Positions 21,108-41,198 of a stretch of 64,000 nucleotides of DNA are shown piece after piece (the first letter of the stretch is position 1; the number at the start of each line of letters is the position of its first letter). The translations under genes were made by a program, and so were the position numbers. The DNA comes from an uncultured Clostridia bacterium (lineage in GTDB: Bacteria > Bacillota > Clostridia > Oscillospirales > Ruminococcaceae). The stretch lies in assembly GCA_947632025.1 (NCBI GenBank), contig CANRNN010000006.1:1-64000 (forward strand), read 5' to 3'. Below the pieces are notes generated by a model. It ran no database searches. It worked only from the letters and a program-made list of their open reading frames with translations, and was not told the DNA's origin.

Positions 21108-21152
21108 CGGGAGAGCTTTGGACGCTCTCCCGATATTTTTTATTCTTTTTTG
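21108..21152. terminator. Bidirectional terminator between convergent genes
   Basis: Nine-base arms CGGGAGAGC / GCTCTCCCG flanked by an A run on the left and T runs on the right, serving both the exporter operon and the AraC gene. Confidence 0.85.
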
Positions 21153-22044: not shown

Positions 22045-22146
22045 ATGCGTAAACGATTACCTCGCCTGCTTATGGCGGTTTTCGCGTATGCGGCAGCGCA
22101 TTGCCGGTCGTGTCCCGACTGTTTTGACCGGCAGCGGGTCACTTGA
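22045..22146 (+). CDS. Possible 33-residue peptide
   Basis: A short frame beginning MRKRLPRLLMAVFAYAAA and containing three later cysteines. A basic start with a hydrophobic stretch resembles a secretion signal. There is no ribosome site, though a near-leaderless transcript from the promoter just upstream could initiate here. The end overlaps the pectinesterase stop on the other strand. Weakly supported. Confidence 0.2.
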   Translation: MRKRLPRLLMAVFAYAAAHCRSCPDCFDRQRVT

Positions 22147-23044
22147 AATATTCAAGAAGCTTGTCCTTTTCGGATTCCGAAAGAACCTTGCTCCACGGTA
22201 CGCGCCCTTCGGGGATCTCGCCGTATTCCGCAAAACGTGCCGTTTTATCACGGTTGGTATCGTTCCATTTGTTGAAGCCTTCGGCGGCAATGTGCCTGCC
22301 GTATGAGCAGTCGATAAATGAGCATTTCCCGTAGTCACGCCACGGACGCGCAAGGAATATCGAGCCGTCCGCGACCGTATCTTCACAGGTGAAGCGGCAG
22401 CGGTCAAATACAAAACAGATTTCCTGTTCGAGAGCATGAGCGGGAGCGGCAACATATCCGTGACCGCGCACATCGTAGATCGACTTTATCTCGCAGTTTT
22501 CAAACAGCGTATCGCCGCAGCCGAAAATAAAGTCCACGTTGCCCGCGATAAAGCAGTTTCGGAAGATGCCGCGCTGGAAGTTCCCCGTGCGGAGGTCGTC
22601 CTTAAGAAATCCGTCGTAGCGCTCGATGAGGTCGGGCGGGAGCGGACCGCAGAAAATCGTGTCCTGAGTGGAAATAAATCGGCAGTTCTCCGCGAGGAAC
22701 CCGTCGGCATAAACCGTGAGGGCTACCTCCTGTCCCTTTTCTTCGGGTCTGAGAGCGTCGTTTTCAACGGTGAGATTTCGGAAAGTCACGTTCGGCGCAA
22801 TGACCGCGGCGGTATAGGTACGGAAAGTGACGTATTCAACACCTTTTTCATCAAGTTTTTTCGCGTAATCGTCCCAGATGATCACGGTTTTTTCGGGATC
22901 TTCCCCGACGAGGGAAATACCCTCGGTGCGGATCTCAAGCTTTACGCGATAGGTTCCTGCGGAAAGACGGATCTCCGTTCCTGAGGGAGCCGAGCTGACA
23001 GCTTTTTGGAGATCGTCGTTGGGCGTGACATTTAAAACAGACAT
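22139..23044 (-). CDS. Pectin methylesterase (CE8 family)
   Basis: A 301-residue enzyme of the right-handed beta-helix pectinesterase family, removing methyl groups from polygalacturonate to give free acid plus methanol. Family motifs are present in order: GTYRVKLEI, FISTQDTIF (first catalytic region with QDT), GNVDFIFG (nucleophile Asp) and ARPWRDYG (Arg and Trp of the active site). No signal peptide is visible, so it probably acts inside the cell on imported methylated oligomers. A minus-strand promoter lies upstream and CGAAAGGAG is the ribosome site. It is divergent from the large pectin operon. Confidence 0.9.
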   Translation of the reverse strand: MSVLNVTPNDDLQKAVSSAPSGTEIRLSAGTYRVKLEIRTEGISLVGEDPEKTVIIWDDYAKKLDEKGVEYVTFRTYTAAVIAPNVTFRNLTVENDALRPEEKGQEVALTVYADGFLAENCRFISTQDTIFCGPLPPDLIERYDGFLKDDLRTGNFQRGIFRNCFIAGNVDFIFGCGDTLFENCEIKSIYDVRGHGYVAAPAHALEQEICFVFDRCRFTCEDTVADGSIFLARPWRDYGKCSFIDCSYGRHIAAEGFNKWNDTNRDKTARFAEYGEIPEGRVPWSKVLSESEKDKLLEYFK

Positions 23045-23387: not shown

Positions 23388-23978
23388 ATGAATTTAACCT
23401 TAAAACAATATAAAGCGATAGATATCGCGATACTGACGGGAATACTGGTGCTGGGTACGTTCCTTGCGACTAAAGCTACAGAGTGGTTCCCGATGGAGCT
23501 GTACGCGCTGTCGCCTGTGGTGGCGCTTGTGTGCATCGTGATGATGCGCTGGGGCGGCTGGGCAGCGATCGACGTTGTGGCAGGCGGGCTGACGTACTGT
23601 GTGGCGCTGGGCGCTGACTGGCAGCAGTATGTGGTCTGCTGTGTCGGCGGACTGGGCGGCATGGCGGGGCTTATTCTGTTCAAGACACTCGGCAAGGAAA
23701 AGATCCGCGCAAGCTTCAAGCTTTCGGAGCTGTTTATGCTGACGGTATACGTCGGTTCGGCGTTCGGAAAGGGGATCGTAAGCCTTTTGCTCGGTGCGCC
23801 GCTTTCAACTTTGGTCATGTTCTTCTGGACCGACCTTATTTCGCTGCTGTTCGCGGCAGTCGCCATTTTTGTGGCGAGAAGGGTAGACGGTCTGTTCGAG
23901 GACCAGAAAAGCTATCTTATTAGAACCGAGTCGGAACGTGCGAAGGCAAGGCTCGGCGGGGACGATCGGCTTATGTGA
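23388..23978 (+). CDS. Small multi-pass membrane protein, first gene of the pectin operon
   Basis: A 196-residue protein with about five hydrophobic segments (ILTGILVLGTFLATKA, LSPVVALVCIVMM, VVCCVGGLGGMAGLILF, a fourth around GSAFGKGIVSLLLGAPLS, and DLISLLFAAVAIFVARR) and a charged cytoplasmic tail. The size and topology recall ECF-transporter S components, but no ECF ATPases are adjacent. It precedes the sugar ABC permeases by 66 bases, so it probably takes part in the same uptake system. Function unknown. Confidence 0.7.
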   Translation: MNLTLKQYKAIDIAILTGILVLGTFLATKATEWFPMELYALSPVVALVCIVMMRWGGWAAIDVVAGGLTYCVALGADWQQYVVCCVGGLGGMAGLILFKTLGKEKIRASFKLSELFMLTVYVGSAFGKGIVSLLLGAPLSTLVMFFWTDLISLLFAAVAIFVARRVDGLFEDQKSYLIRTESERAKARLGGDDRLM

Positions 23979-24044: not shown

Positions 24045-25097
24045 ATGGCACTCAACGTATCAGACTATCTGATTTTCGATGAGGAAAGCGGTACCTACAT
24101 CGAAAATCCCGAACAGGTCGTTCGCGATGACGTGGAAAAGCATCATTGGCTGAACGTCTTCCGTCAGGTTTTGAAGGATTGGCGTTTGTATCTGATGCTC
24201 GTCCCGATGATCGCGGTATTCCTGTTATGGCGCTATTTACCGATGTACGAGCTGCTCGGATGCTTTAAGGTGACGGATGATGTAAAGACCGTCGCTGAAC
24301 AGTTCTATTCCGGCTTTTCGTATTTCAAGCAGCTGCTTATCGGCGGCACGACACTGTCGACGGAGTTCTGGAGAGCGTTCAGAAACACGTTCCTCCTCAG
24401 CTTCTACGGCTTGATTTTCGGATTCCCGATGCCGATCATTATCGCGTTGTTCTTCAACGAGATCCGGTCGAACATCATGCGTTCGATTTATCAGGTACTT
24501 ACATACCTTCCTAAGTTTATGTCGACAGTCGTTATGACCTCGCTTATTACGATGCTTGTTAAGCAGGGCACGATCATCAGCGGCGCGGGCGTTATCTCTC
24601 AGATGCTCGAACATCTGGGTCTTATCTCTTCGGAGGTCGCCAATGCCGGACTGCTGAACAACCCATCGTTCTTCCGAGCCATTTATCAGATAAGCGGTAT
24701 CTGGGAGACGGCGGGCTACGATTCTATCGTATTCTTCGCGGCGATCATCGCGATCTCCCCGACGAGCTACGAGGCTGCTCAGATCGACGGCGCAGGCAAG
24801 ATGGCACAGATGAAATATGTTGTACTGCCGAGTATCCTTTCAACTATCGTAATCATGCTTATTACGAAGATCGGTACTCTGCTGAACATCGGATACGAGA
24901 AAGTCCTGCTTCTCTATAAGCCGGAAACTTACATGACCGCAGACGTAGTTTCCACTTTCTCACAGCGTTACGGTATCGCGGGCACTATGAAGGGTCTTGC
25001 GGCTGCCGCTGAAATGATGAACAACGTAATCGGAATGCTGCTCGTTATCGGCGCTAACACAATCGCTAAAAAGGCGTCGAACGTGTCACTCTATTAA
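24045..25097 (+). CDS. Sugar ABC transporter permease (LplB-type)
   Basis: A 350-residue permease of the MalF-like CUT1 group, closest in style to LplB. It has a 55-residue cytoplasmic N-terminal extension, then six membrane segments. The EAA loop that contacts the ATPase is EAAQIDGAGKMAQMKYVVLP. It pairs with the YtcP-like permease and the large binding lipoprotein. Substrates in a pectin locus would be oligogalacturonides or rhamnogalacturonan fragments (inferred). AGGAGG precedes the ATG. Confidence 0.88.
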   Translation: MALNVSDYLIFDEESGTYIENPEQVVRDDVEKHHWLNVFRQVLKDWRLYLMLVPMIAVFLLWRYLPMYELLGCFKVTDDVKTVAEQFYSGFSYFKQLLIGGTTLSTEFWRAFRNTFLLSFYGLIFGFPMPIIIALFFNEIRSNIMRSIYQVLTYLPKFMSTVVMTSLITMLVKQGTIISGAGVISQMLEHLGLISSEVANAGLLNNPSFFRAIYQISGIWETAGYDSIVFFAAIIAISPTSYEAAQIDGAGKMAQMKYVVLPSILSTIVIMLITKIGTLLNIGYEKVLLLYKPETYMTADVVSTFSQRYGIAGTMKGLAAAAEMMNNVIGMLLVIGANTIAKKASNVSLY

Positions 25098-25115: not shown

Positions 25116-26006
25116 ATGAAAAGAAAACTTGAAATTTCGGAGCTTATATTCAAAATTATAAGCTACCTTTTGCTTACGATCTTCGCGATAATGTGTCTTT
25201 ACCCGTTCATTTATACGATTTCATCGTCGATTTCGGACTATGACGCAGTAACGCACAGCGAGGTCGTTCTTCTCCCGAAGAACCTTCAGTTCGACGCGTT
25301 CAAGGCTATGTTCAATACGAACGGATTCTGGAACTCTTACACGAACACACTGTTCCTTACCGTTTACGGTACTATTTGGGAGCTGCTGCTCTCCGTTTTG
25401 GGCGCGTATGCGCTTTCAAAGCCCAGACTGCTGTTCCGTAAGGGATTCAACTTCTTCCTCGTGTTCACGATGTGGTTCAGCGCAGGTCTTGTACCGCAGT
25501 ACTTGAACTACCTCGCAACTCAGAAGGTTTTCCGTGCGATAGGAATCGTGGACGACAAATGGCTTGTCGTATTCGCAATGGGTATGGCGGCAATGAACAT
25601 AATCCTGCTTCGTAACTCCTTTGAGGGAGTGCCCTCCGAAATTGAGGAGGCGGCAATAGTCGACGGAGCAACGGAAATGCAGGTTCTCACGCGCGTATAC
25701 CTCCCGATGAGCAAGTCGATCATAGCTACAGTAACGCTGTTCTACGCGATATCGCGCTGGAACGGATACTTCTGGGCAAGACAGATGATAACCAATAACA
25801 ACGAACACCCGCTGATGGTATTTATGCGTGTTCGTCTTGAGGACTACACCGATCCGGAGAAGATCGCGGGCTGGAACTACAACTATGCTCCTGACTCGCT
25901 TATCTACTCGCTTATCGTCTGCTCCGTTATCCCGATACTTATTATATATCCTTTCATTCAGAAATACTTCGCAAAGGGCGTAAACGTCGGCGGCGTAAAG
26001 GAATGA
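25116..26006 (+). CDS. Sugar ABC transporter permease (YtcP-type)
   Basis: A 296-residue MalG-like CUT1 permease with six membrane segments. The EAA loop is EEAAIVDGATEMQVLTRVYLP. YtcP/LplB pairs serve pectin-fragment uptake in Bacilli and Clostridia. The gene follows the first permease after 18 bases and precedes the binding protein, the standard order for this transporter type. Confidence 0.88.
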   Translation: MKRKLEISELIFKIISYLLLTIFAIMCLYPFIYTISSSISDYDAVTHSEVVLLPKNLQFDAFKAMFNTNGFWNSYTNTLFLTVYGTIWELLLSVLGAYALSKPRLLFRKGFNFFLVFTMWFSAGLVPQYLNYLATQKVFRAIGIVDDKWLVVFAMGMAAMNIILLRNSFEGVPSEIEEAAIVDGATEMQVLTRVYLPMSKSIIATVTLFYAISRWNGYFWARQMITNNNEHPLMVFMRVRLEDYTDPEKIAGWNYNYAPDSLIYSLIVCSVIPILIIYPFIQKYFAKGVNVGGVKE

Positions 26007-26155: not shown

Positions 26156-28378
26156 ATGAGAAAATCAAAAATTGTTGCTTCTCTCCTTGCGGCTTCTGTT
26201 GCAGCAACCACACTTCTTGCGGGCTGCAATACTACCGGAAACGAGAACAGCAACAGCAGCAACAGCGGCAACAGTAGTGCGGGAGGAAGCTCTTCCGCAG
26301 GCGGAGATACCAGTTCAAACGCACCCGAAGCTCCTAAGCTTGAATACGCAGATGACACAATACTTCGTATGGCAACAGGTTATAACAGTGCTTCTACGGG
26401 ACTTTTCTTCGATGAAAAGACAATTACCGATAACGGCGAAAATGGTGCTCTGACCCTTTCTGACGGTAATACCTACCGTAACGGCGACCTCAAGCCTACT
26501 TGGGTAGAGGTTCAGAACCGTCTGAAGGTAAAGTTTGAGAACAAGTATCAGGGCAACTCTGCAAGCAAAGAGTTTGACTACTGGAAAGAGAAACTCGGCG
26601 ATGTAGATATGGTTTCCGGTACGGCTACTCAGCTTACTGAAAACGGTGCTGCAGGCAAGCTCGTTGATATCTCCAAGTATCTCGACAGCATGCCTAACTT
26701 CAAGGCTTACCTCGAAGCTAATCCTATCGTTCGTCTTTCTATCACAGGTTCTGTTTCCGGTGCAGACAAGGGCGCTATCTACTTCAGCCCGTACTTCGAC
26801 GGTGTAAACGATATCGAGCGTATGCCCCTTATGAGAACCGACTGGGTTGAAAAGCTTCTTAACGGCGAAGGCGAATTCAAAGCAGACGCATACAACAACA
26901 CAAGCACTCCTGCTTATCAGCCTTATATGCCCACTTCCGGCAAGGTTGCTGTTGACGTTGTAAAGAAGGATGGCTCCGGCGTTGAGACAATCAACAAGGA
27001 CTATGACAAGGCAGGCAACATTGTTGCAAAGATGAACGAAAAGGGTCCTATGACCGGTGTTGAAGCTGTCAATATGCTCCGCACATATATCGACGAAGCT
27101 TATGACGGATACTACGGAACCAACCGTGCTGACCTCTTTATCGGTCAGAACGCTGCTTGGGACGCAGACGAGCTTGTTGCTCTTCTCCGCTGCGTAGTAG
27201 CTAACCCGCAGACACTTAACGGTACTTCTTCTGTTCAGGGTCTTCACAGCCGTGAAGATGCTAACAACCAGCGCCGTGTTGATATGTTCAGATTCGCAGG
27301 CACTCTGTTCGGAGTTCGTGGACTGGAGTCCCGTCAGGATTATCTCTATGTAGGTACTGACAACCAGATGCACGACGCTCGTCAGGAAAAGGAATGCTGG
27401 GAAGCAATGGACAAGATGAACGCAATGGTTAAGGAAGGTCTTATTTCTACTGCGTTCGTTAATGGTGAGGACGTAAAGACTCAGGATTACCTCAAGGATG
27501 ACCTTGGCTTTATGCACTATGACTACAACCAGACCCAGACCCTTTACGATGATGAATCACAGGGTATACTCGACACCGCTAATGGTGAGAAGTACATGGC
27601 TGTAATGGTGCCTGTTGCTCGCTGGAACGACGGTACTGAAAAGTACATGAGATTCACCGAGTCTTGGCGTTCTGTTAAGACCGATGGTTGGGGCATCTCT
27701 GTTGAGGGCGTTGGAAACGACACCAATAAGCTCAACGCTGCACTTTCTCTTATCGACTATGCGTACAGCCAGGAAGGTCAGATCCTTATGTCCTACGGTC
27801 CTGATTCCTTCATCAAGACTAAGGCAGACGGTTCTTACGAAACATTCAACTTCAACGGCGAACAGTGGCCTGTAATCTCAGACAAGACTCGTGAAGAGCT
27901 CTGGAGCCTTGGTAAGGGCAACTACACCAACTACGCTCGTTACTTCCTTGGTTCTACTCTGAGCTTTGCAAAGAGCCAGGCATTTGAGTATCAGTGCACT
28001 TCCGATGTAGGAAGAGAGGGCGCAGGCTACATCTCTACCGCAATCGGTCTTGGCACAATCAAGCACCCTGAGCTTGCACTTGCTGAGAATCCTTGGTACA
28101 CTTCTGTTCCGACAGTTCTTCCTTACACAACAACTCAGAAGAACATGATCAACGGCTTTACCGAGATCGGTGAAAAGGGACAGTTCAGCTCCTCTAAGGA
28201 TCCTAACGTTAACCTCCTCGTTGATGTTATCACTAAGGGTTACACCGGTTCGGCAGGCGCTAATGCAGAAGCAGTAGCAACTACTATCTCCGGCGATTGG
28301 AACGGCGCTCAGTACCTTGCACTTGCAAACACTGCATGGAAGCTGCTCGTTGACTACTACAATACTCTTAACGCTTAA
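26156..28378 (+). CDS. Large extracellular solute-binding lipoprotein
   Basis: A 740-residue lipoprotein. The signal peptide ends in LLAGC, with lipidated Cys24, followed by a Ser/Gly/Asn-rich linker (about 25-60). The binding domain is much larger than the usual 400-550 residues of CUT1 binding proteins, as for oligosaccharide-binding LplA/YtcQ types. The ATG at 26156 is set by AAGGAGGA; an earlier in-frame ATG has no ribosome site. Codon use is more biased than in its neighbours (CTC/CTT, CGT, AAG), a sign of very high expression. Hairpins without T runs follow the stop, which may protect this part of the mRNA. Confidence 0.85.
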   Translation: MRKSKIVASLLAASVAATTLLAGCNTTGNENSNSSNSGNSSAGGSSSAGGDTSSNAPEAPKLEYADDTILRMATGYNSASTGLFFDEKTITDNGENGALTLSDGNTYRNGDLKPTWVEVQNRLKVKFENKYQGNSASKEFDYWKEKLGDVDMVSGTATQLTENGAAGKLVDISKYLDSMPNFKAYLEANPIVRLSITGSVSGADKGAIYFSPYFDGVNDIERMPLMRTDWVEKLLNGEGEFKADAYNNTSTPAYQPYMPTSGKVAVDVVKKDGSGVETINKDYDKAGNIVAKMNEKGPMTGVEAVNMLRTYIDEAYDGYYGTNRADLFIGQNAAWDADELVALLRCVVANPQTLNGTSSVQGLHSREDANNQRRVDMFRFAGTLFGVRGLESRQDYLYVGTDNQMHDARQEKECWEAMDKMNAMVKEGLISTAFVNGEDVKTQDYLKDDLGFMHYDYNQTQTLYDDESQGILDTANGEKYMAVMVPVARWNDGTEKYMRFTESWRSVKTDGWGISVEGVGNDTNKLNAALSLIDYAYSQEGQILMSYGPDSFIKTKADGSYETFNFNGEQWPVISDKTREELWSLGKGNYTNYARYFLGSTLSFAKSQAFEYQCTSDVGREGAGYISTAIGLGTIKHPELALAENPWYTSVPTVLPYTTTQKNMINGFTEIGEKGQFSSSKDPNVNLLVDVITKGYTGSAGANAEAVATTISGDWNGAQYLALANTAWKLLVDYYNTLNA

Positions 28379-28496
28379 TCCGACCCCGGCAAATTGAATT
28401 AAAGCGAACCTGCGGGTTTCCCCGCAGGGACGCAAAATCCACATTATGTTCAAGAGGGGGAGGCAGCCCCTCTCCCTCAAACATAAAGGAGTTTTT
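28379..28496 (+). other. Intercistronic hairpins after the binding-protein gene
   Basis: Two hairpins: CCTGCGGGTTTCCCCGCAGG (about 28409-28428) and GAGGGGGAGGCAGCCCCTCTC (about 28453-28473). Neither has a T run, suggesting mRNA stabilisation or partial attenuation between the abundant binding protein and the membrane genes. Confidence 0.6.
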
Positions 28497-29090
28497 ATGT
28501 ACAAGAAACAAATGATTTTCCAGAAGGTAATATGCTATGTAATGCTGGTCGCAAGCGCGCTGGTGTTCGTATATTCCTTGGGTCTTTCGACCGATTTGTA
28601 TGACGCACTTAATTCAACCATGATGGACCCTTCGGATTATGATATGACCGACGTTCAGGGTTCACGCATTTATTACGATATTCAGCCGTTCAACAAGGCG
28701 CTTACTATGGTTTCTATCGGTCTGATTATCGCGAATCTGATTTTGTTTATCACCTGCACACATTCGCGCAGAAAGTACTACATAGGCAACTTCTTCTCTA
28801 TCGGACTTTCGACAGTATGCAATGTTGGTGCGTCCGTATGGGCTATCAGCAATCTGATGGCTTATAAACAGACATATCTTCAAATCGACTTTGAGGCTTT
28901 GAAAGCGCACGCAGATTTGTGGAAAACGTTATACACGGATTCGACATTCTGGTTTGATATAAGCTTCTTTGTGTTCGGTTTGCTTTTGTTGACAACCGTT
29001 TTGCTTCTTGTTAATTTGGCTTTGAAAGTAATCATGATGAAGGAAGAAAGACGTTTGATCGGCAGCAGAAAGGATGTGGTGGGAAGATGA
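28497..29090 (+). CDS. Small four-helix membrane protein in the sugar ABC operon (A)
   Basis: A 197-residue protein with four predicted membrane segments (ICYVMLVASALVFVYSLGL; MVSIGLIIANLILFITC; FFSIGLSTVCNVGASVWAI; ISFFVFGLLLLTTVLLLVNLAL) and an extracytoplasmic loop between the first two. AAAGGAG before ATG 28497 fixes the start over an upstream frame. It overlaps the next gene by four bases. No family recognised. It sits between the binding protein and the ATPase of the importer. Confidence 0.75.
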   Translation: MYKKQMIFQKVICYVMLVASALVFVYSLGLSTDLYDALNSTMMDPSDYDMTDVQGSRIYYDIQPFNKALTMVSIGLIIANLILFITCTHSRRKYYIGNFFSIGLSTVCNVGASVWAISNLMAYKQTYLQIDFEALKAHADLWKTLYTDSTFWFDISFFVFGLLLLTTVLLLVNLALKVIMMKEERRLIGSRKDVVGR

Positions 29091-29596
29091 CTTTGAACAA
29101 TGACGCCCTTATCAAAAAGGACAGACTTCGCTTTACGAAGAACAAGTTATCCGCAAACCTTACGTTGCTGGCGATCGTATTTGACGCGCTGTACTTCGTC
29201 AGTATCTATAAATCCGATGTAGGAACGTATTTTTACAATTGGCTCATCGGGGTTTCGATCGTTTACAATCTTCTTTTTATGCTCGCGGCGTTCCTGTGCG
29301 AGGAGGGCGTAAAGGGCTACAAGATGGGATATAGTTATGTCCTCATTCTTCTTGGATTGGGTCAGCTTGTAAGGATCCTTATAATTCCGATGCAGGCTAA
29401 AAACGCTGAGGTAGCTATCGGCGGCGAAAACGTAGTCGCAATGGACAACGTACAGTTTATTTATGTGTCGGTATGCCTTATTGCTTCAGCCGCTCTGTGC
29501 ATCATAGCAGGCATTGTCGGGATCATCAAGACATCGACGCTTAGAAGCTATGAAGCGGAACTCGAAAAAAGGAATAGGAGTGGTGGCAAGTCATGA
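29087..29596 (+). CDS. Small four-helix membrane protein in the sugar ABC operon (B)
   Basis: A 169-residue protein with four hydrophobic segments (LTLLAIVFDALYFVSIY; LIGVSIVYNLLFMLAAFL; YSYVLILLGLGQLVRILII; VCLIASAALCIIAGIVGII) and cytoplasmic charged ends. Its start overlaps the preceding stop (ATGA) and its stop overlaps the ATPase start, so the three genes are translationally coupled. That coupling argues for a fixed stoichiometric complex. Family unknown. Confidence 0.75.
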   Translation: MTLNNDALIKKDRLRFTKNKLSANLTLLAIVFDALYFVSIYKSDVGTYFYNWLIGVSIVYNLLFMLAAFLCEEGVKGYKMGYSYVLILLGLGQLVRILIIPMQAKNAEVAIGGENVVAMDNVQFIYVSVCLIASAALCIIAGIVGIIKTSTLRSYEAELEKRNRSGGKS

Positions 29597-30654
29597 GTGA
29601 CCTCAGATTACAGCATCTCGATAAAATTTATGACAACAAGGTACAGGCTGTCTATGACTTTAACCTTGATGTCAGAAACGGTGAGCTTATCGTCCTCGTC
29701 GGACCTTCAGGGTGCGGAAAATCCACGACGCTCCGTATGGTCGCGGGTCTTGAGGATATTTCAGCCGGAAACCTGATAATCGACGGCAGGGACGTTACTC
29801 AGATGCCGCCTAAGGACCGCGATATCGCGATGGTTTTCCAGAACTACGCGCTGTACGGTCATATGACGATCTACGAGAATATGGCGTTCTCGCTTATGCT
29901 CCGCAAGGAAAATAAGAACGAGATCCACCAGAAAGTTCTGGCGGCTGCCGAAATTCTCGATCTTACCAGCCAGCTCAATAAAAAACCGAATCAGCTCTCA
30001 GGCGGTCAGCGTCAGAGAGTTGCAATGGGACGTGCGATTGTTCGTACTCCTAAGGTTTTCCTCTTTGACGAGCCGCTTTCAAACCTTGACGCAAAGCTGA
30101 GGTCTGCGACACGTCGTGAGATACTTCTGCTTCATAAAAGACTTAAAGCGACGATGCTTTATGTAACGCATGACCAGACCGAGGCGCTGACTCTCGCGGA
30201 CAGAATCGTATGTATGTCGATGGGTCACGTTCAGCAGGTCGGGACTCCTCTTGAGCTGTACGATACGCCTGCGAATCTTTTCGTAGCGTCCTTTATCGGA
30301 CTGCCTCCTATGAATATGTTTGACGTTGAGATCAAAAACGGTCAGGCTATTTGTGAGGATTTCGCTGTTGACCTCAGTGCTGAGGAAAAGGCGATGCTTT
30401 CGAGATACGAGGGCAGAACGGTCGTTATGGGCGTTCGTCCCGAAAACGCTGTAGAGGGCGGAAATATCACGGTCAATGTATTCTCAAATGAGAACTTGGG
30501 TCAGACAACTCTCGTAAACGGCAATGTCGGCAAGCACAGGATCACCTGCAAATTCCGCGACTGGTGCAACTACAAAGCCGGCGACGAGGTCAAAGTTTCC
30601 TTTAACAAGATGCATTTCTTCGATAAGGATACCACCGACGCAATAAGATTATAA
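29593..30654 (+). CDS. Sugar ABC transporter ATP-binding protein (MsmK/UgpC type), first copy
   Basis: A 353-residue CUT1 ATPase. Walker A GPSGCGKST (about 37-45), Q-loop FQNYALYG, signature LSGGQRQR, Walker B VFLFDEPLSNLD, switch THDQTEAL. A C-terminal MalK-type regulatory beta-domain begins near residue 240 (PPMNMFDVEI, MGVRPENA). It is coupled to the two small membrane proteins upstream by start/stop overlaps, which is unusual since MsmK-type ATPases often stand alone and serve many importers. Confidence 0.92.
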   Translation: MSDLRLQHLDKIYDNKVQAVYDFNLDVRNGELIVLVGPSGCGKSTTLRMVAGLEDISAGNLIIDGRDVTQMPPKDRDIAMVFQNYALYGHMTIYENMAFSLMLRKENKNEIHQKVLAAAEILDLTSQLNKKPNQLSGGQRQRVAMGRAIVRTPKVFLFDEPLSNLDAKLRSATRREILLLHKRLKATMLYVTHDQTEALTLADRIVCMSMGHVQQVGTPLELYDTPANLFVASFIGLPPMNMFDVEIKNGQAICEDFAVDLSAEEKAMLSRYEGRTVVMGVRPENAVEGGNITVNVFSNENLGQTTLVNGNVGKHRITCKFRDWCNYKAGDEVKVSFNKMHFFDKDTTDAIRL

Positions 30655-30670
30655 TAAAGGAGACGAGAAG

Positions 30671-31246
30671 ATGGCTAATAGTGTTAAAAAGCAGGGCCGC
30701 GGAATTAAAGAGTTTATCCGTAAATTCATCGTATCCCTTAAAAGAAGTCCTCACAACCTGATCCTTTTTGCGTTGGTCGTGACATTCGTTATCTACTCGT
30801 TGAACCTCACGTCGATTTCTAATACGACGATGAAGGTCAATATGACAAATATGGGTCAGTGCGAGTTCGCGGGAATGCTTCTGTCAATTCTGACGTTTGT
30901 AACATTCCTGAGGTCGTTCCCCAGACGTCAGAAAGCCAACAAGCCTATGGTCGCTCTTACGGTGATTATGCTTGCGGCGAATATAGCTGTAGACTTTGTC
31001 TATGTAATGAGAGTTTCTCAGGCTCTTTCAATGACGGGCGCTGACGCAATTGCAATTACAGCTGATACAATGTATATCCCGAATTCGCGGACAATATTGA
31101 CGATCCATATGATTTGTCTTGCAATTTGCCTTGCGTTGATACTTCTGCTTCCTGTATACAGCAAATTGCTTAAGAAAATCAATACTTCTATCGACGTTGA
31201 GGGCAACGAAAATATGGCTGCGATCGACATCGCTTCAGAAGACTAA
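30671..31246 (+). CDS. Small four-helix membrane protein in the sugar ABC operon (C)
   Basis: A 191-residue protein with a basic N-terminus (about 30 residues), four membrane segments (NLILFALVVTFVIYSLNL; FAGMLLSILTFVTFL; MVALTVIMLAANIAVDFVYV; MICLAICLALILLLPVY) and an acidic cytoplasmic tail. AAAGGAG lies upstream. It follows the ATPase by 16 bases. No homologous family comes to mind; the role is inferred from position only. Confidence 0.75.
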   Translation: MANSVKKQGRGIKEFIRKFIVSLKRSPHNLILFALVVTFVIYSLNLTSISNTTMKVNMTNMGQCEFAGMLLSILTFVTFLRSFPRRQKANKPMVALTVIMLAANIAVDFVYVMRVSQALSMTGADAIAITADTMYIPNSRTILTIHMICLAICLALILLLPVYSKLLKKINTSIDVEGNENMAAIDIASED

Positions 31247-31308
31247 TATCGAATGTAAAGCAGCATTAGCCGTAGGCTTTTGTTGCTTTCATTTCAAAAG
31301 GGGATAAA

Positions 31309-31947
31309 ATGTCTAAGAAAAGCAAAAACCAAATACGCGACAGGGAAAAGACAACGGCTGAATATTACGACCTTAAAACAGACGCTGTCAACAAGCTCCT
31401 GAACGCGAAGGACGCTCCGAAGGTCAGCGACAAGGAAATCAGGAAATACACATCTAAGAATAAATTCCACATTCCGAGCTGGGTGAAAATCGTTTTCATC
31501 AAGTTCTGGTTTGCGGGAGCGATGTGCTACTTCTTCCTGTGGGGTCTGGGAATGTATTTGCAGAACCTCGACCTTATGGTGGTGCTTGCGTGTGCGCTCG
31601 GCGCTTCAATGGATCTGATGGTGAATCATCTGCTCCACTATTTCGAGCCGACAAAGGGCGAGTATGACAAGTGGATGATGGTTACAGTCAGAAAATTCTG
31701 GTCGCTGTTCATAAATATTCTGTACGCGGGGTTGCTGCTTATCTGCGTTATGCAGGCATATGAGCTGATAAATATGCTTGTGACAGGAACGACTGCCGAA
31801 AACGCCGAAAGCGTGCCGGTGGGAGTTGAGCCGCTGCTTTTCGGTATCCTCTTTATGGCGTTTGATATGCTGTTTATCGGAATAAAGAATTTGCTTATCA
31901 AAATTTTCCGTGACGCTCAGAAAAAGGTAAGCGAAAAGAATTCGTAG
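31309..31947 (+). CDS. Small four-helix membrane protein in the sugar ABC operon (D)
   Basis: A 212-residue protein with a 55-residue highly charged cytoplasmic N-terminus, four membrane segments (IKFWFAGAMCYFFLWGLGMYL; MVVLACALGASMDLMVNHLL; LFINILYAGLLLICVMQ; LLFGILFMAFDMLFIGI) and a basic C-terminal end. It is the fourth of the small membrane proteins after the binding protein and precedes the polygalacturonase. Family unknown. Confidence 0.75.
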   Translation: MSKKSKNQIRDREKTTAEYYDLKTDAVNKLLNAKDAPKVSDKEIRKYTSKNKFHIPSWVKIVFIKFWFAGAMCYFFLWGLGMYLQNLDLMVVLACALGASMDLMVNHLLHYFEPTKGEYDKWMMVTVRKFWSLFINILYAGLLLICVMQAYELINMLVTGTTAENAESVPVGVEPLLFGILFMAFDMLFIGIKNLLIKIFRDAQKKVSEKNS

Positions 31948-32050: not shown

Positions 32051-33592
32051 ATGGTAAATATACTGTTTGCAGGGTCGGTGTCGGCTTGCTTCGAGTTCGA
32101 CAACAAAAGCCCATATTATAATGATAAGGAATACACCGTGACGCTTGATGGGGAGAAGAAATTTTCCTCTAATACAAACGTCTTTTCGTTGTTTTCTCTG
32201 AAACCCGATACCGAATACACACTTGAGGTTTCGGGAGAAGAGCCCTTGAAATTCAAGACAGCAAAAGAATCCTGTGCGGTCAACGTGAAGGATTTCGGCG
32301 CGGTCGGCGACGGAAAAGCGGACGATACGCTCGCTATCCAGACCGCTGTAAACTGCCTGCCGAAGGGCGGCAGACTGTACATTCCCGACGGAGTGTACAA
32401 CACGGCTCCGCTGAGTCTTAAAAGCAATATGACGATCGAGCTTGGAGAAAACGCTGTTCTGCTCGGACTGACAGACGAGTCGCGGTATCCCGTAATTCCC
32501 GGAACGCTTAATGACATCGTAACGGGTGAGGACGTTCAGTTCGGTATGTGGGAGGGCGAATCCGTACCGATGCATCAGTCGCTTCTTTTCGCGGAATATG
32601 CCGAAAATATCAACATTATCGGTCGCGGAACAGTCGATGGAAATGCTCAGAATTCCCAGTGGTGGGTAAATGTTAAAGAACGCAAGATCGCAAGACCGAG
32701 ATTGCTGTTCTTCAATCGCTGCAAAAATGTTACCGTTCACGGTATAACGGTGCAGAATGCTGCTTCGTGGCAGATACATCCGTATTTTTCGCAGCAGATG
32801 AATTTCTTCGACCTCGAAATAAATGCTCCGAAAGACAGCCCGAACACCGACGCTCTTGATCCGGAAGCGTGCGATAACGTCAATATCGTCGGGTGCAAGT
32901 TCTCCGTCGGAGATGACTGTATCGCGATAAAATCGGGCAAAATTGAAATAGGAAAGAAATACAAAACTCCCGCAGATCATCACACTATCCGTAATTGCCT
33001 TATGCAGTTCGGTCACGGTGCGGTGACTCTCGGAAGCGAAATGGCGGGCGGCGTGAAGAATCTCACAGTGAACCGCTGCATTTTCAACCATACCGACCGC
33101 GGTCTTAGAATAAAGACCAGACGCGGACGCGGCAAGTACGCCGTTATCGACGGAGTTTTGTTTGAAAATATAAAAATGGACGGAGTGCTTACTCCTATTG
33201 TAATAAATATGTGGTACAACTGCTGCGATCCGGACAGATTCTCCGAGTACAATACAACTCGCGAAAAACTGCCTGTCGACGACAGAACGCCGTATCTCGG
33301 AAAGTTCACGTTCAAGGATATGGATTGTGAAAATTGTCAGGTAGCCGCCTGCTACTGCGACGGACTTCCCGAAATGCCGATAGATGAGATAACAGTCGAG
33401 AACATAAAATTCACATACGATCCCGACGCTAAACCCGGTTATCCGTCAATGAAGAACAACAATGTTCAGCTTTGCAGGGCGGGAATGTATTTCGACAACG
33501 TCCGCAGGCTTACCGTGAAAAATGTCACGGTCGACGGCTGTGACGGCGAGGAGCTTATGGCTCAGAATTACGAGGAACTGACGAAGGAGTAA
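32051..33592 (+). CDS. GH28 polygalacturonase-type glycoside hydrolase
   Basis: A 513-residue enzyme hydrolysing galacturonic-acid linkages in (rhamno)galacturonan. A fibronectin-like N-terminal part (to about 80) precedes the beta-helix, entered through VKDFGAVGDGKADDT. The GH28 active-site motifs are NTDALDPEACDN, GDDCIAIKSGK (paired aspartates), FGHGAVTLGSE and RGLRIKTRRG. There is no signal peptide, so it works on imported oligomers. GGAG five bases before ATG 32051 favours this start over one 21 bases upstream. The next gene begins four bases after the stop. Confidence 0.9.
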   Translation: MVNILFAGSVSACFEFDNKSPYYNDKEYTVTLDGEKKFSSNTNVFSLFSLKPDTEYTLEVSGEEPLKFKTAKESCAVNVKDFGAVGDGKADDTLAIQTAVNCLPKGGRLYIPDGVYNTAPLSLKSNMTIELGENAVLLGLTDESRYPVIPGTLNDIVTGEDVQFGMWEGESVPMHQSLLFAEYAENINIIGRGTVDGNAQNSQWWVNVKERKIARPRLLFFNRCKNVTVHGITVQNAASWQIHPYFSQQMNFFDLEINAPKDSPNTDALDPEACDNVNIVGCKFSVGDDCIAIKSGKIEIGKKYKTPADHHTIRNCLMQFGHGAVTLGSEMAGGVKNLTVNRCIFNHTDRGLRIKTRRGRGKYAVIDGVLFENIKMDGVLTPIVINMWYNCCDPDRFSEYNTTREKLPVDDRTPYLGKFTFKDMDCENCQVAACYCDGLPEMPIDEITVENIKFTYDPDAKPGYPSMKNNNVQLCRAGMYFDNVRRLTVKNVTVDGCDGEELMAQNYEELTKE

Positions 33593-33596
33593 CTTT

Positions 33597-34724
33597 ATGT
33601 ACGCTCAGATCGACAAATATATCGACCGTCTGCTGGACGGCTCAAAGCCCGAAGCTCCGCTGTGGAACATCGAAAATATACGTCAGGGAAAGCCCGCACA
33701 CTGGAATTACATCGACGGCTGTATGATAACAGCTCTGCTGTGCGCAAGCGAGATCACCGGCGAAAAGCGCTATGCGGATTTCGCGGAGAATTTCATTGAT
33801 TATTATGTCAATGAGGACGGCACCATACGCGGGTATTCAATGGATAAGTTCAACCTTGACGATGTGAATGAGGGTCGGGTGTTGTTCGACCTCTATAAAT
33901 CTACCGGCAAGGAGAAGTATAAAAAAGCTATCTTTATGCTTCGGGAACAGCTTGAAAAACAACCCCGCACAAATACGGGAAACTTCTGGCATAAGAAGAT
34001 CTATCCGAATCAGATATGGCTTGACGGACTTTATATGGCGCAGGTTTTCTACACAAGATTCCAGAAGGAATTCGGCGGCGGTGATTATTCCGATATTGTC
34101 GCACAGTTTAAGAATGTCCGCAAATATATGTTCGACGAGAATAAGAAGCTGTTCTATCACGGCTGCGACTGCTCAAAAACGGCGTTCTGGGCGGATAAGG
34201 ACACGGGCTGCTCGAAAAATTTCTGGCTGAGAGCTATAGGGTGGTTCTGTGTGTCGCTTGCCGATAATATCGACTATATGGACGACGAGAATTCGCGAAA
34301 CGAGCTTATTGCGATCTTCCGTGAGGCAATTGACGGAATAGCGCAGTACGCTGACCCCGAAACAGGTATGTATTATCAGGTCGTTGACCGCGGAGGAAGC
34401 GAGGGAAATTACCTCGAAACCAGCGGCAGCAGCATGATAGCTTACGCTATGATGAAAGGCGCAAGACTCGGCGTTATAGACAAGAAGTATTCGGAAATGG
34501 GCAAGAAAACGTTCGACGGTATCTGTAACAAGTACCTCAGGATTTCCGAGGACGGCGAGCTGAATTTGGGCGGTATCTGCCTTGTTGCGGGTCTTGGACC
34601 TGAGGACAACAGACGCCGCGACGGCAGCTACGAGTACTACATTTCCGAGCCTGTCGTTGACAATGACGCGAAAGGCGTTGCGCCGTTCGTGCTGTGCTAT
34701 ACAGAAGTAAAGCGTCTGGGTTGA
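33597..34724 (+). CDS. GH105 unsaturated rhamnogalacturonyl/galacturonyl hydrolase (YteR-like)
   Basis: A 375-residue cytoplasmic enzyme with the alpha6/alpha6 barrel of GH88/105. Motifs typical of YteR are WLDGLYMAQVF (catalytic Asp), FWLRAIGWFCVSLAD and ETSGSSMIAYAMMKGARLG. It removes the 4,5-unsaturated uronic acid left by pectate or rhamnogalacturonan lyases, releasing 5-keto-4-deoxyuronate for KduI encoded downstream. AAGGAG precedes the ATG. Confidence 0.9.
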   Translation: MYAQIDKYIDRLLDGSKPEAPLWNIENIRQGKPAHWNYIDGCMITALLCASEITGEKRYADFAENFIDYYVNEDGTIRGYSMDKFNLDDVNEGRVLFDLYKSTGKEKYKKAIFMLREQLEKQPRTNTGNFWHKKIYPNQIWLDGLYMAQVFYTRFQKEFGGGDYSDIVAQFKNVRKYMFDENKKLFYHGCDCSKTAFWADKDTGCSKNFWLRAIGWFCVSLADNIDYMDDENSRNELIAIFREAIDGIAQYADPETGMYYQVVDRGGSEGNYLETSGSSMIAYAMMKGARLGVIDKKYSEMGKKTFDGICNKYLRISEDGELNLGGICLVAGLGPEDNRRRDGSYEYYISEPVVDNDAKGVAPFVLCYTEVKRLG

Positions 34725-34899: not shown

Positions 34900-36306
34900 A
34901 TGAAAAACATTAAAATCGCGTACATAGGCGGAGGCTCTAAGGCGTGGGCAAGGGTCTTTATGACTGATCTTGCGCTTGCGGAGGGGCTTTGCGGAGAAAT
35001 CGCGCTTTACGATATCGACGTTCCGGCAGCGGAGCGCAACAGGAAGATCGGCGCGAGAATAAACGAATCTCCCGAAACGATATCAAAGTGGGATTACAAG
35101 GTATATGAGAATATAGGCGACGCTCTGGACGGAGCGGATTTCGTGGCTTGCTCGATACTGCCGGGTACGTTCGATGAAATGCAGAGCGACGTACATCTTC
35201 CCGAAAGATACGGTATCTTCCAGTCTGTCGGCGATACGGTGGGTCCGGGCGGAGTTTTAAGAGCAATGCGGACGGTGCCTATATACGAGGGTTTTGCGAA
35301 CGCTATCCGTGAGCATTGCCCCGACGCGTGGGTCATTAACCTCACGAATCCTATGACCGCCTGTACGAAAACGCTTCACGATGTTTTCCCCGAAATAAAA
35401 GCGTTCGGCTGCTGTCACGAGGTGTTCCACGCGCAGGAGTTCCTTTGCTGCGCGGCAGAGGAAATTCTCGGCGTAAAGCGTCCCACAAGACACGATATAC
35501 AGATCGACGCCTGCGGCATAAACCATTTCACATGGATAACAGAGGCAAATTTCAACGGGACGGATATGCTGAAGCTGCTTCCCGATTTTATTGACAGATT
35601 CTACGAAAAAGGCTATTGCGAACAGGTCGGATTCAAACCGCAGGATTTTCGCGGTGAAAATCCGTTCCTATACGGAAACAAGGTCAAGATGGACCTGTTT
35701 AGGCGGTTCGGAGTTCTTGCAGCAGCGGGCGACCGGCATCTTGTCGAGTTTATGAACAAGAGCTGGTATATAAAGGACAAAGACGACGCGGAGAGTTGGC
35801 TGTATCACCTCACTTCCGTGGATTATCGCAAGAAAGACCGCGAGGAGAAAATCGCTCAGTCGGATCGTATCGCGGCGGGCGAGGAGAAGATTCCCGTTAA
35901 AAAAAGCGACGAGGAAGTCGTCGAGCTTATGAAGGCGATCCTCGGAATGATACCTGCTCACGTTTCCAATGCCAATGTGCCTAACGTCGGACAGATGCCC
36001 GATATGCCGTTGGGGTCAATAGTTGAAACCAACTGCGTATTCTCGCGGGATTCGGTGAAGCCGATAGCCGCAAAGCCGCTTCCGAAAACAGTAAACGCAC
36101 TGGTTCTCCGAAACGCGCTGAACATAGAGAACACATATTACGGCATAAAGCACAGGAATTTCAAAGAGATATTCGAGGCGTTCGCGAATCAGCCGCTCTG
36201 TTCGGAGCTGTCAATTTCGCAGGCGAAAGAGCTTTTCACCGATATGGTGAACGCAACTTCGGAATATCTGAAAGACTATTTCCCGCTTAAGGAGCTTAAA
36301 CTGTGA
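34900..36306 (+). CDS. lplD: GH4 alpha-galacturonidase (LplD-like)
   Basis: A 468-residue NAD- and metal-dependent family 4 glycosidase. The NAD-binding fold begins YIGGGSKAWARVFMTDL; metal and substrate motifs are NLTNPMTACTK, GCCHEVF and GINHFTWI. In Bacillus the LplD enzyme splits galacturonic acid from small oligogalacturonides or from GalA-Rha. Its product, galacturonate, feeds UxaC here. The stop overlaps the GTG start of the AEC transporter. Confidence 0.88.
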   Translation: MKNIKIAYIGGGSKAWARVFMTDLALAEGLCGEIALYDIDVPAAERNRKIGARINESPETISKWDYKVYENIGDALDGADFVACSILPGTFDEMQSDVHLPERYGIFQSVGDTVGPGGVLRAMRTVPIYEGFANAIREHCPDAWVINLTNPMTACTKTLHDVFPEIKAFGCCHEVFHAQEFLCCAAEEILGVKRPTRHDIQIDACGINHFTWITEANFNGTDMLKLLPDFIDRFYEKGYCEQVGFKPQDFRGENPFLYGNKVKMDLFRRFGVLAAAGDRHLVEFMNKSWYIKDKDDAESWLYHLTSVDYRKKDREEKIAQSDRIAAGEEKIPVKKSDEEVVELMKAILGMIPAHVSNANVPNVGQMPDMPLGSIVETNCVFSRDSVKPIAAKPLPKTVNALVLRNALNIENTYYGIKHRNFKEIFEAFANQPLCSELSISQAKELFTDMVNATSEYLKDYFPLKELKL

Positions 36307-37298
36307 CAGACGCGCTTTTGTTTTCCGCAAACGCTGTTTTGCCGATCGTACTTCTGATAGTTCTGGGATATGTGCTTAAACGCATAAAGCTGCTTACTCC
36401 GGCGTTCCTTGAAGTGGGAAACAAGCTAACGTTCAGGGTGCTGCTGCCGGTAATGCTTTTCTGCAATGTGTATGCTATCGAAAGCTTCAGCGATATAAAT
36501 GCAGGCTTTATCCTATACGGCATAGGCGCGGTGTTGGTGATATTTTTTCTGGCTATCGGGATATGCTGCTTGTTTACGAAAGATCCCGCAAAGCGGGGAG
36601 CGCTTATTCAAGGCGTGTTCCGCTCGAATTACGCAATAATCGGGATCCCGCTTGCAACGTCGCTTTTCGGCGACGCGGGCGCGGCTGCAGCGGGAGTTAT
36701 GTCGGCGTTCTGCGTTCCGACGTTTAATATTCTGGGAGTTATCGCGCTGTCGATCTTCAACGGCGGAGAGCGGAAAAAAGTAAATGTCGGAAAGATACTT
36801 CTCGGCATATGCAAAAATCCGCTTATAATAGGTACGGTCGCCGGTCTGGCGGTACTCGGCATACGCACGGGCTTTGAGGCAGCGGGTATTTCGTTCAGGC
36901 TCTCGGATATTGAATTCCTTTATAAATCGCTTCAGAACGTGAAGTCCGTCTGCACACCGTTTGCACTGATAGTGCTGGGCGGAAAGTTCGAGTTCTCGGC
37001 GGTTTCGCGGCTTTGGAAAGAAATCGTTTTCGGTACGGCGATACGCACCGTGGCAGTGCCGGTCATGGGTCTTGGAGCAGCGTATCTTTTAAGGAATGCG
37101 CTTTCACTCGGCGGCGAGCATTTCGCGGTATATGTCGGAGTATTCGCAACGCCCGTGGCGGTCGCAAGCGCCATTATGGCAAAGGAAATGGGCGCGGACG
37201 ACGAGCTTGCAGGACAGCTTGTGGTATGGACGAGTCTTGTGAGCGCCGTGACGATATTTATTTACTCAACAGTCCTGAGAGCGGTCGGCATCTTTTAG
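36303..37298 (+). CDS. AEC-family transporter (auxin efflux carrier-like)
   Basis: A 331-residue membrane protein with about ten segments in two inverted halves, the family's fold (NAVLPIVLLIVLGYVLKRI at the start; FAVYVGVFATPVAVASAIMAKEMG near the end). Family members export or import organic acids such as malate or malonate. It starts with GTG overlapping the previous stop, so it is tightly tied to the galacturonidase gene. A role in uronate or organic-acid movement is inferred. Confidence 0.85.
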   Translation: MTDALLFSANAVLPIVLLIVLGYVLKRIKLLTPAFLEVGNKLTFRVLLPVMLFCNVYAIESFSDINAGFILYGIGAVLVIFFLAIGICCLFTKDPAKRGALIQGVFRSNYAIIGIPLATSLFGDAGAAAAGVMSAFCVPTFNILGVIALSIFNGGERKKVNVGKILLGICKNPLIIGTVAGLAVLGIRTGFEAAGISFRLSDIEFLYKSLQNVKSVCTPFALIVLGGKFEFSAVSRLWKEIVFGTAIRTVAVPVMGLGAAYLLRNALSLGGEHFAVYVGVFATPVAVASAIMAKEMGADDELAGQLVVWTSLVSAVTIFIYSTVLRAVGIF

Positions 37299-37395: not shown

Positions 37396-38169
37396 ATGAG
37401 TATTTTAGACAAATTCAGCTTAACAGGAAAAGTCGCTATCGTAACAGGAAGCGATACAGGTCTGGGACAGGGCTTCTCGAAGGCGTTCGTTGAGGCGGGC
37501 GCAAAGGTTCTCGGTGTATCCAATATGCCGAGTACAGCTACACAGGAGATGCTCGGCGCGGATAAATTCCAGTTCATTCAGGCTGACCTCTCTACTCTCG
37601 ACCCTATCGACACTGTTATCAATACCTGTCTTGAAAAGTTCGGACGTATTGATATTCTCGTAAACAATGCGGGCGTTATCAAGCGCGAGGACACTATCGA
37701 CTTCTCGGTTGCAAGCTGGGATCTGGTAATGAACGTAAACTGCCGTACACTGTTCTTCCTGTCGCAGGCAGTAGCTAAACAGTTTATGAAGCAGGAAGCC
37801 GTTGAGGGCAAAAGCCGCGGCAAGATAATCTCCGTAGCGTCCATGCTGTCTTATCAGGGCGGTATACGCGTTCCTTCTTACACAGCGTCGAAGTCCGCTG
37901 TTAAGGGAATCACAATGACTATGGCAAACGAGTGGGCTAAGGACGGCATTAACGTAAACGCTATAGCTCCCGGATATATGGCTACCAACAATACAAAGGC
38001 TCTGCGTGCAGACGCTGACAGAAGCGAAGCTATTCTCGACCGTATCCCCGCAGGCAGATGGGGTACACCCGATGACATTATGGGTACGGCTGTATTCCTC
38101 GCGTCCGAGGCAAGCAACTATGTAAACGGCTTCACCATCGCTGTTGACGGCGGCTGGCTCGGCAGATAA
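37396..38169 (+). CDS. kduD: 2-deoxy-D-gluconate 3-dehydrogenase (KduD)
   Basis: A 257-residue short-chain dehydrogenase. Cofactor motif TGSDTGLGQGF, NNAG at about 91, catalytic Ser/Tyr/Lys in SMLSYQGGIRVPSYTASKSAVKG. The C-terminal SNYVNGFTIAVDGGWLGR matches KduD. It reduces 2,5-diketo-3-deoxygluconate to KDG, the step after KduI. GGAGG precedes the ATG. Confidence 0.9.
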   Translation: MSILDKFSLTGKVAIVTGSDTGLGQGFSKAFVEAGAKVLGVSNMPSTATQEMLGADKFQFIQADLSTLDPIDTVINTCLEKFGRIDILVNNAGVIKREDTIDFSVASWDLVMNVNCRTLFFLSQAVAKQFMKQEAVEGKSRGKIISVASMLSYQGGIRVPSYTASKSAVKGITMTMANEWAKDGINVNAIAPGYMATNNTKALRADADRSEAILDRIPAGRWGTPDDIMGTAVFLASEASNYVNGFTIAVDGGWLGR

Positions 38170-38273
38170 CAGTCGTTTCGGCTTGCTAAAAGTACCGATT
38201 TTTGCAAAAAAAGCCTGTTTGTACTGAACGTCACAATTGTGGCGAAAAATAAACAATTTGGAGGAAATTTGAA

Positions 38274-39245
38274 ATGGCTATTGATATGAAAGCTTTTCAG
38301 GACCAACTTGAGTTCACGGGTATAATCCCTGTTATCAAGCTGGAAGATACATCCAAGGCTGTCGACCTTGCCAAGGCGCTCCGCGCGGGCGGCATCAACG
38401 CGGCGGAAGTAACGTTCCGTGCGGCGGGTGCGGATAAGGTCATCTCCGATATGACCAAGGCGTTCCCCGATATGCTCGTGGGCGCGGGTACTGTAACCAC
38501 AATAGAGCAGTGCGACGCTGCTATCGCGGCAGGCGCGAAGTTCTGCGTAGCCCCCGGTCTTAACGCTAAGGTCGTTAAGCACTGCCTTGACAAGGGCGTT
38601 CCGTTCGCTCCCGGTGTTGCGAACAGTTCACAGATCGAAGAGGCTATGGAGCTGGGTCTGGACTTCGTTAAGTTCTTCCCCGCAGAGCAGGCGGGCGGTC
38701 TGGCTTACATCAAGTCCATTTCCGCACCGTATTCCAATATGAAGTTTATGCCGACAGGCGGCGTTAACGAGAAGAACCTCAACACCTACCTCGGATTTAA
38801 GAAGATCATCTGCTGCGGCGGCTCGTGGATCGTTCCCGGAGATCTCGTTAAGGCGGGCGACTGGGACGGCATTACGGCTCTCTGCCGCACCGCTGTAAAC
38901 AAGATGCTCGACTTCCAGATCGTTCACGTTGGTATCAACTGCGCGAACGAGGATGAGGCTAAGGACACCACCGCGAAGTTTGCGAAGATGTTTGGCTGGG
39001 AGCAGAAGGTAGGCAACAGCAGCGTATTTGCGGGTACTGCCATAGAGTGCATGAAGAGCCCGTTCAAGGGAAAGAACGGTCATATCGCGGTCGCTACGAA
39101 CAGTCTGCGCAGAGCCGTTTACCAGCTCAACGCTATGGGCATTGAAACCGAGAAGAAGGCTGTCGAGATCGACGCGGATACTAAGGCAGTTTATCTCAAG
39201 GATGAGTTCAGCGGATTTGCTGTTCATCTCGTTGAGAGAAAGTAA
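38274..39245 (+). CDS. eda: KDPG aldolase fused to a C-terminal VOC domain
   Basis: A 323-residue protein. Residues 1-215 are a complete class I KDPG/KHG aldolase: IIPVIKLED, AEVTFRAAGADK (catalytic Glu), VGAGTVTT, VKFFPAEQ (Schiff-base Lys) and PTGGVN. The last 105 residues (FQIVHVGINCANEDEAKDT onward, ending FSGFAVHLVER) form a VOC/glyoxalase-like unit, absent from the usual 205-215 residue Eda. The aldolase splits KDPG to pyruvate and glyceraldehyde-3-phosphate. The extra domain may be regulatory or a lyase-type metal site; its function is unknown. TTGGAGG precedes the start. Confidence 0.88.
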   Translation: MAIDMKAFQDQLEFTGIIPVIKLEDTSKAVDLAKALRAGGINAAEVTFRAAGADKVISDMTKAFPDMLVGAGTVTTIEQCDAAIAAGAKFCVAPGLNAKVVKHCLDKGVPFAPGVANSSQIEEAMELGLDFVKFFPAEQAGGLAYIKSISAPYSNMKFMPTGGVNEKNLNTYLGFKKIICCGGSWIVPGDLVKAGDWDGITALCRTAVNKMLDFQIVHVGINCANEDEAKDTTAKFAKMFGWEQKVGNSSVFAGTAIECMKSPFKGKNGHIAVATNSLRRAVYQLNAMGIETEKKAVEIDADTKAVYLKDEFSGFAVHLVERK

Positions 39246-39317
39246 TCGGGACTGACCCCGCAGGACGGGTCTAACAAACGGATATACGACATTAAAATTT
39301 TAAGGAGATTGATTGAC

Positions 39318-40349: not shown

Positions 40350-40352
40350 TAA

Positions 40353-41186: not shown

Positions 41187-41198
41187 CAGGAGAAAACA

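Follow-up and report, generated by a model that had tools for sequence, protein, structure and literature searches.

Our study revealed a nine-gene cassette in which the genes of a CUT1-type ATP-binding cassette (ABC) sugar importer are interleaved with genes for five further membrane proteins, here called M0 to M4. It lies in a stretch of 64 000 nucleotides of contig CANRNN010000006.1 (forward strand; assembly GCA_947632025.1, an uncultured Clostridia bacterium of the Ruminococcaceae), referred to below as the window. The gene order on the + strand is M0-LplB-YtcP-SBP-M1-M2-MsmK-M3-M4, where LplB and YtcP are the permeases, SBP is the solute-binding protein and MsmK is the ATPase. Two permeases, an ATPase and a binding protein are usually regarded as all that a CUT1 importer comprises, and the cassette suggests a larger type of uptake machine for sugars that has not been described so far. 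M0-M4 very probably serve the importer, and we infer, with less assurance, that they are probably subunits of one assembly with LplB, YtcP and MsmK. If this is true, the picture of acidic-chain uptake in some gut and rumen bacteria would be revised, perhaps to include chains beyond short oligosaccharides, one of the added subunits would have the predicted fold of another class of ABC importer and five new protein families would gain a function.

The association of the nine genes was indicated by the conservation of the block. A profile scan of genome contigs with the M4 alignment found 250 relatives, and the best 80 were analysed as loci; most of these came from metagenome bins that are labelled as Clostridia or as one of its families, a few are labelled spirochaete or Solobacterium, and one is from the isolate Ruminococcus albus 8 (locus L054). 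Testing gene order required at least 8.8 kb of sequence upstream of M4, which was present in 58 of the 80 loci; the other 22 were left out because their upstream sequence was too short. The order was exactly that of the window in 56 of the 58, and in the remaining two it was the same with one gene split into two frames (SBP in L014 and YtcP in L061); M0-M4 were all present in every one of the 58. The initial annotation of this DNA, which read the extra proteins as part of an expanded uptake complex, had considered that their homologues might lie mostly away from ABC genes. The opposite was found, as the M genes were contiguous with LplB, YtcP, SBP and MsmK in those 56 of 58 loci. Spacing was also tight, with 30 bases or fewer between M1 and M2 in 56/56 loci, between M2 and MsmK in 53/56 and between MsmK and M3 in 53/56.

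Searches that did not start from M4 gave the same picture. In a family sample of 148 genomes, M1, M2, M3 and M4 were searched for separately and were found in the identical five genomes, and in an order sample of 295 genomes the strong matches to M4 and the matches to SBP fell in the identical eight. M0 was present in seven of these eight, the contig of the eighth ending inside LplB. Weak matches in the order sample, each covering at most a third of the profile, were not counted; these came from 3 of 11 genomes for M4 (E 9e-4 to 9e-3) and 1 of 8 for M0 (E 2e-4). When the SBP of a divergent cassette (locus L113, considered below) served as bait for a neighbouring family (160 genomes), 10 matches were obtained in 8 genomes, 4 of which overlap the order sample. 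These matches comprised six complete cassettes, the divergent cassette itself, one solitary SBP-like protein and two cases in which the contig stops at SBP, yet shows M0-LplB-YtcP. As the separate M1-M3, M0 and SBP searches agree, the joint occurrence is not just an effect of the M4 bait. The cassette was found in 1 of the 348 genomes of a phylum sample, the window's own, and its distribution is therefore patchy.

Alignments were based upon 39-40 of 40 representative loci together with the window and L013 (29 of the 40 for SBP); an M1 and an M3 sequence of excessive length were omitted. Mean pairwise identity across the 40 representatives and the window was 78-80 % for LplB, YtcP and MsmK, 63 % for SBP and 46-53 % for M0-M4, and the distance matrices of the nine genes correlated at 0.38-0.88. 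In L013, the most distant member, the N-terminus of M4 was mostly absent. The conserved identity of M0-M4 and their fixed order rule out chance or artefactual open reading frames. M0-M4 might be mere passengers or artefacts of gene prediction, without a role in uptake, as their position outside any known family would suggest; this is already contradicted by reading frames and order that are conserved over Clostridia- and spirochaete-labelled contigs, and we regard this explanation as extremely improbable.

The core of the cassette is, by sequence, an alginate-importer-type CUT1 system. Permease 1, LplB (24045-25097), matched AlgM1 with an E value of 1.4e-62 over residues 39-346, and permease 2, YtcP (25116-26006), matched AlgM2 with an E value of 8.9e-77. 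MsmK (29593-30654) is the MsmK/UgpC-type ATPase of the importer, with the Pfam domains ABC_tran and OB_MalK and a score of 455.4 bits against NF008653, above the cut-off of 432. SBP (26156-28378; reading frame open from 26072) is a solute-binding lipoprotein with the lipobox LLAGC, identified by eye. It had no Pfam family match and no NCBIfam match at E 1, and the relationship to AlgQ was seen as a remote match of its profile to PDB sequences (AlgQ1, E 1.6e-16 in two stretches; AlgQ1/AlgQ2, about 1e-16). The profile also matched three further SBP sequences in the PDB (E about 1e-11), which we take to be Smon0123. The alignment with the solved AlgM1 chain begins only after 38 N-terminal residues of LplB (window 24045-24158); these have a mean identity of 73 % over the loci and are a possible docking segment, although the solved AlgM1 may be a shortened construct, which makes this difference unsure. 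Since the core has the sequence features of its type, but is encoded with further membrane subunits, we regard the cassette as a variant of the CUT1 importers. A second MsmK-type ATPase gene was seen downstream of the cassette in 24 of the 48 loci with at least 9.5 kb beyond M4, despite the cassette's own.

M0 (23388-23978) is the first gene of the operon, as originally annotated. It had been described as a five-helix protein, and this is corrected here to six, as alignment-averaged hydropathy gave six hydrophobic segments and a high-confidence structure model (models were made for M0 and M1) resembles the six-helix S components of energy-coupling factor (ECF) transporters. An S-component fold is thus predicted for M0 from its model. 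Unlike the ECF S components ThiT, RibU, PanT and BioY, M0 does not match their sequence families, with 0 of 42 members matching a Pfam S-component family at E 0.05, and it is partnered by an SBP-dependent CUT1 importer. S components carry an AxxxA motif in helix 1; at the candidate pairs of M0 (10/14, 17/21 and 21/25) small residues occur in no more than 43-57 % of the 42 sequences, and positions 29 and 30 are the only ones that are nearly always small. Among M0-M4 there was no EcfT-like profile, in a comparison with 11 EcfT-family sequences for which the control passed. M2 had been tried as an EcfT on one weak CbiQ match (1 of 42 members, E 0.0046), and the comparison with the 11 sequences did not support it. 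An EcfT-family protein (PF02361) was encoded elsewhere in the genome in 10 of 10 cassette genomes searched. This, with the S-component-like predicted fold, would fit M0 acting as a working S component that imports a small ligand, such as a uronate or a cofactor, through the EcfT/EcfA module shared within the cell, with M1-M4 having other roles, an arrangement that we consider improbable.

M1 (28497-29090), M2 (29087-29596), M3 (30671-31246) and M4 (31309-31947) each showed four membrane segments by alignment-averaged hydropathy, and their basic ends place both termini inside. For M1, the list of open reading frames gives a longer frame from 28446, and the ATG at 28497 with the upstream AAAGGAG was used. 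The N-terminus of M3 is basic, and that of M4 comprises 58 residues and is predicted to lie inside. The initial annotation was otherwise accurate in its description of these proteins: all five M frames were found at the coordinates it gave, M1-M4 are placed around the ATPase gene, they have about four helices each and the genes are partly coupled by ATGA overlaps (M1/M2, 29087-29090; M2/MsmK, 29593-29596). Its description of them as unrelated-looking also stands, since all ten pairwise profile comparisons of M0-M4 gave a probability of <3 %; the candidate explanation of M1-M4 as mutual paralogues was likewise given no support by profile comparison.

No relationship to a known family was found for the M proteins. 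M0-M4 had no NCBIfam match at E 1, the window's M1 and M4 had no Pfam match, its M0, M2 and M3 had Pfam matches only below the cut-off (E 0.12 or worse) and the five profiles gave nothing convincing against PDB sequences. Across the M alignments (41-42 members each), no single Pfam family had matches in over 12 members at E 0.05. The weak matches of M3 members were to DUF6057 (12/41, best E 0.0024) and HisKA_7TM (8/41, best E 6.7e-05), and those of M1 members reached E 0.00047, with DUF4064 in 2/41. DUF624 (PF04854) was not among the families listed for these alignments, which for M3 are 25 of 31; its members YesL and YteU, found near the Bacillus subtilis YtcQP-YteP and YesOPQ operons, presumably represent another family than the M proteins. 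An MreD identity was not supported by a check for companion mre genes, which were not found. The M1 model (predicted local distance difference test score 91.5) is a long four-helix bundle; the topology of M1 has two outside loops of ~40 residues each, both net acidic. The fold matches of the model were unspecific four-helix bundles, with designed ones on top and soluble proteins among the rest. As the best matches are designed bundles, the likeness of M1 to tetraspanin-, claudin- and TARP-like proteins is one of common arrangement and not of kinship.

If M0-M4 are subunits of the importer, the nine genes would encode a single machine that imports acidic oligosaccharides, chiefly oligogalacturonides that are partly methylated or unsaturated. 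The alginate-importer-type core would be its engine, in which SBP would capture the chain on the cell surface, LplB and YtcP would form the channel and two copies of MsmK would drive transport. M0 and M1-M4 would be accessory membrane subunits packed around LplB-YtcP, and the charged ends of M3 and M4, with the N-terminus of LplB, would provide cytoplasmic surfaces near the ATPases. M1, with acidic outside loops on long helices, would most likely contribute to a collar on the outer side, at which the oversized SBP would dock and the chain would be aligned; that it belongs to such a collar is a tentative guess from its topology. The chain would be imported whole and then cut inside by pectin methylesterase and enzymes of the glycoside hydrolase families GH28 and GH105.

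Related importers have been described in other bacteria. The Alg system of Sphingomonas sp. A1 and the Smon0123/Smon0121-0122/0120 system of Streptobacillus use the same families of permease, ATPase and binding protein, and likewise take up acidic (poly)uronides that are degraded in the cytoplasm, according to the excerpts of PMC7055323 and PMC5717064. As described there, they have two permeases, one ATPase and one SBP, whereas the cassette encodes five more membrane proteins. The Gram-positive importers YtcQP-YteP and YesOPQ of B. subtilis, for pieces of polygalacturonan and rhamnogalacturonan, differ in using a shared ATPase, MsmX, that is encoded elsewhere, and the excerpt of PMC5730181 mentions no M0-M4-like subunits. 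For TogMNAB of Dickeya, likewise an importer of pectic oligomers, the excerpt of PMC7055323 mentions no extra membrane subunits. We found no description of the cassette in the open-access literature, which misses most subscription journals, and the earlier suggestion that it is possibly undescribed holds to that extent.

Several observations weigh against M0-M4 being parts of one importer assembly for pectin fragments. The excerpt of PMC5717064 describes AlgQ2/AlgM1-AlgM2/AlgS-AlgS and the Smon0123 importer with no additional subunits, so that the core needs no M proteins in principle. Sequence change is faster in M0-M4 (mean identity 46-53 %) than in LplB, YtcP and MsmK (78-80 %), the distances of SBP and MsmK correlate at just 0.38 and conserved gene order is an indication of shared function, not of contact. 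Of the 59 loci whose sequence extends 5 kb or more beyond M4, three have no nearby GH28 or GH105 gene (L082 and L083, labelled spirochaete, and L085, labelled Lachnospiraceae). Finally, the divergent cassette L113, known from one genome only, has no M0, a marginal match to M1 (E 0.013) and a frame at the place of M3 without a profile match; its M2 and M4 matched at E 1e-6 and E 2e-13.

The main rival explanation is that M0-M4 form a separate membrane complex, such as a sensor or a second carrier of pectin products, that is merely co-expressed with the importer and makes no contact with LplB-YtcP. Co-expression and co-occurrence fit this equally well, M0-M4 resemble no known importer part by sequence and the related cores are, as excerpted, described without them. 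However, the ATPase gene sits within 30 bases of M2 on one side and of M3 on the other (53/56 loci each), M0 leads LplB, and the nine genes stay together while the surrounding enzymes vary; we therefore judge a separate complex to be unlikely. A role outside the finished importer, as factors needed to assemble it or as anchors of the lipoprotein or of surface enzymes, would be consistent with the co-occurrence of the M proteins with the importer and with an SBP that is large for its relatives (740 residues, compared to 490-516 for the solved AlgQ chains). Five dedicated factors per importer would nevertheless be unusual, and another sugar-type permease pair in the same genome (L143) is accompanied by an SBP-like gene only, which makes this role decidedly improbable.

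The genes around the cassette indicate the probable substrate. Divergent from it and on the - strand are an AraC-family regulator with cupin and helix-turn-helix domains (21140-21922; Pfam HTH_18 and AraC_binding) and, upstream of M0, a pectin methylesterase (22139-23044; PF01095, E 2.8e-32). Downstream on the + strand are a GH28 polygalacturonase-like protein (32051-33592; PF00295), which scored 416.7 bits against NF051860 (PglA), under the cut-off of 600, a GH88/GH105-type unsaturated uronyl hydrolase (33597-34724; PF07470, E 8.7e-92), a GH4 glycosidase (34900-36306; PF02056) and an AEC-type membrane transport protein (36303-37298; PF03547). These are followed by uronate catabolic genes identified by Pfam (37396-42035), encoding a KduD-like short-chain dehydrogenase/reductase, a 2-keto-3-deoxy-6-phosphogluconate aldolase, a PfkB kinase, a TIM-barrel isomerase-like protein and KduI. 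The aldolase (38274-39245; Pfam match over residues 11-203) has ~120 extra C-terminal residues that appear by eye to be of the vicinal oxygen chelate/glyoxalase type.

GH28 or GH105 was found near the cassette in 56 of the 59 loci with sufficient downstream sequence. The initial annotation's proposal of pectin fragments as substrate thus agrees with most loci; three lack these genes, and the divergent cassette adjoins heparinase/alginate-lyase-like genes. The L082 and L083 cassettes lie next to a CobW-like gene, identified by eye, and a PfkB (ribokinase-like) gene, for which a Pfam match was obtained in L083 only; they may serve another substrate or have their enzymes elsewhere. The pectin methylesterase, GH28, GH105 and GH4 proteins of the window had no clear signal peptide by a crude check based on hydropathy only and covering five window proteins; the N-terminal hydropathy maximum was 1.48 for GH28, compared to 2.02 for SBP. 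The pectin methylesterase (maximum 0.27) has no hydrophobic N-terminus and is therefore probably cytoplasmic, and de-esterification would probably take place in the cytoplasm after import. No PF00544 pectate lyase was found in the genome, this being the one pectinase family sought in this way. Given this and the lack of clear signal peptides, we infer that oligogalacturonides enter whole, having been released by other organisms or enzymes.

The divergent cassette L113 adjoins a DUF4962 protein and a heparinase II/III-alginate-lyase-like protein. These neighbours point to another acidic polysaccharide, and the nine-gene architecture may therefore extend beyond pectin. A broader reading is a hybrid class of importer, in which an SBP-dependent CUT1 engine is extended by an ECF-S-like subunit and a ring of tetraspan proteins, with at least two substrate versions. 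The lipoprotein would hand long polyanionic chains through an extra membrane collar to the channel, one version acting on pectin and the other, without the S-like subunit, on an alginate- or heparin-like polymer. We consider such a class rather doubtful.

The spacer between SBP and M1 (28379-28496, +) contains strong hairpins, with a fold of -51.2 kcal/mol. Its hairpin z-score was below -2 in 55 of 56 loci, measured against 30 single-base shuffles, a lenient control, and hairpins were also present in the YtcP-SBP (34/53) and M3-M4 (25/26) spacers. A hairpin that follows a binding-protein gene usually increases the yield of the product encoded upstream of it, and here the hairpins would suit an abundant SBP and lesser amounts of M1-M4, as for permeases.

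The SBP domain was also seen outside complete cassettes. Locus L128 (G294:C29, 3229-6540, -) is a solitary frame of 1104 residues with a lipoprotein-like N-terminus (by eye) and unmatched extra sequence in addition to the SBP domain, and no other cassette gene lies within 15 kb. Genome G262 has a divergent locus, L115 (G262:C91, 2708-4279), where the SBP domain stands directly after GH28, besides that at L129 (G262:C127, 2516-6058, -). The latter encodes a solitary protein in which an S-layer homology domain and a Listeria-Bacteroides repeat come before the SBP domain; it perhaps displays the same binding domain while anchored to the cell wall.

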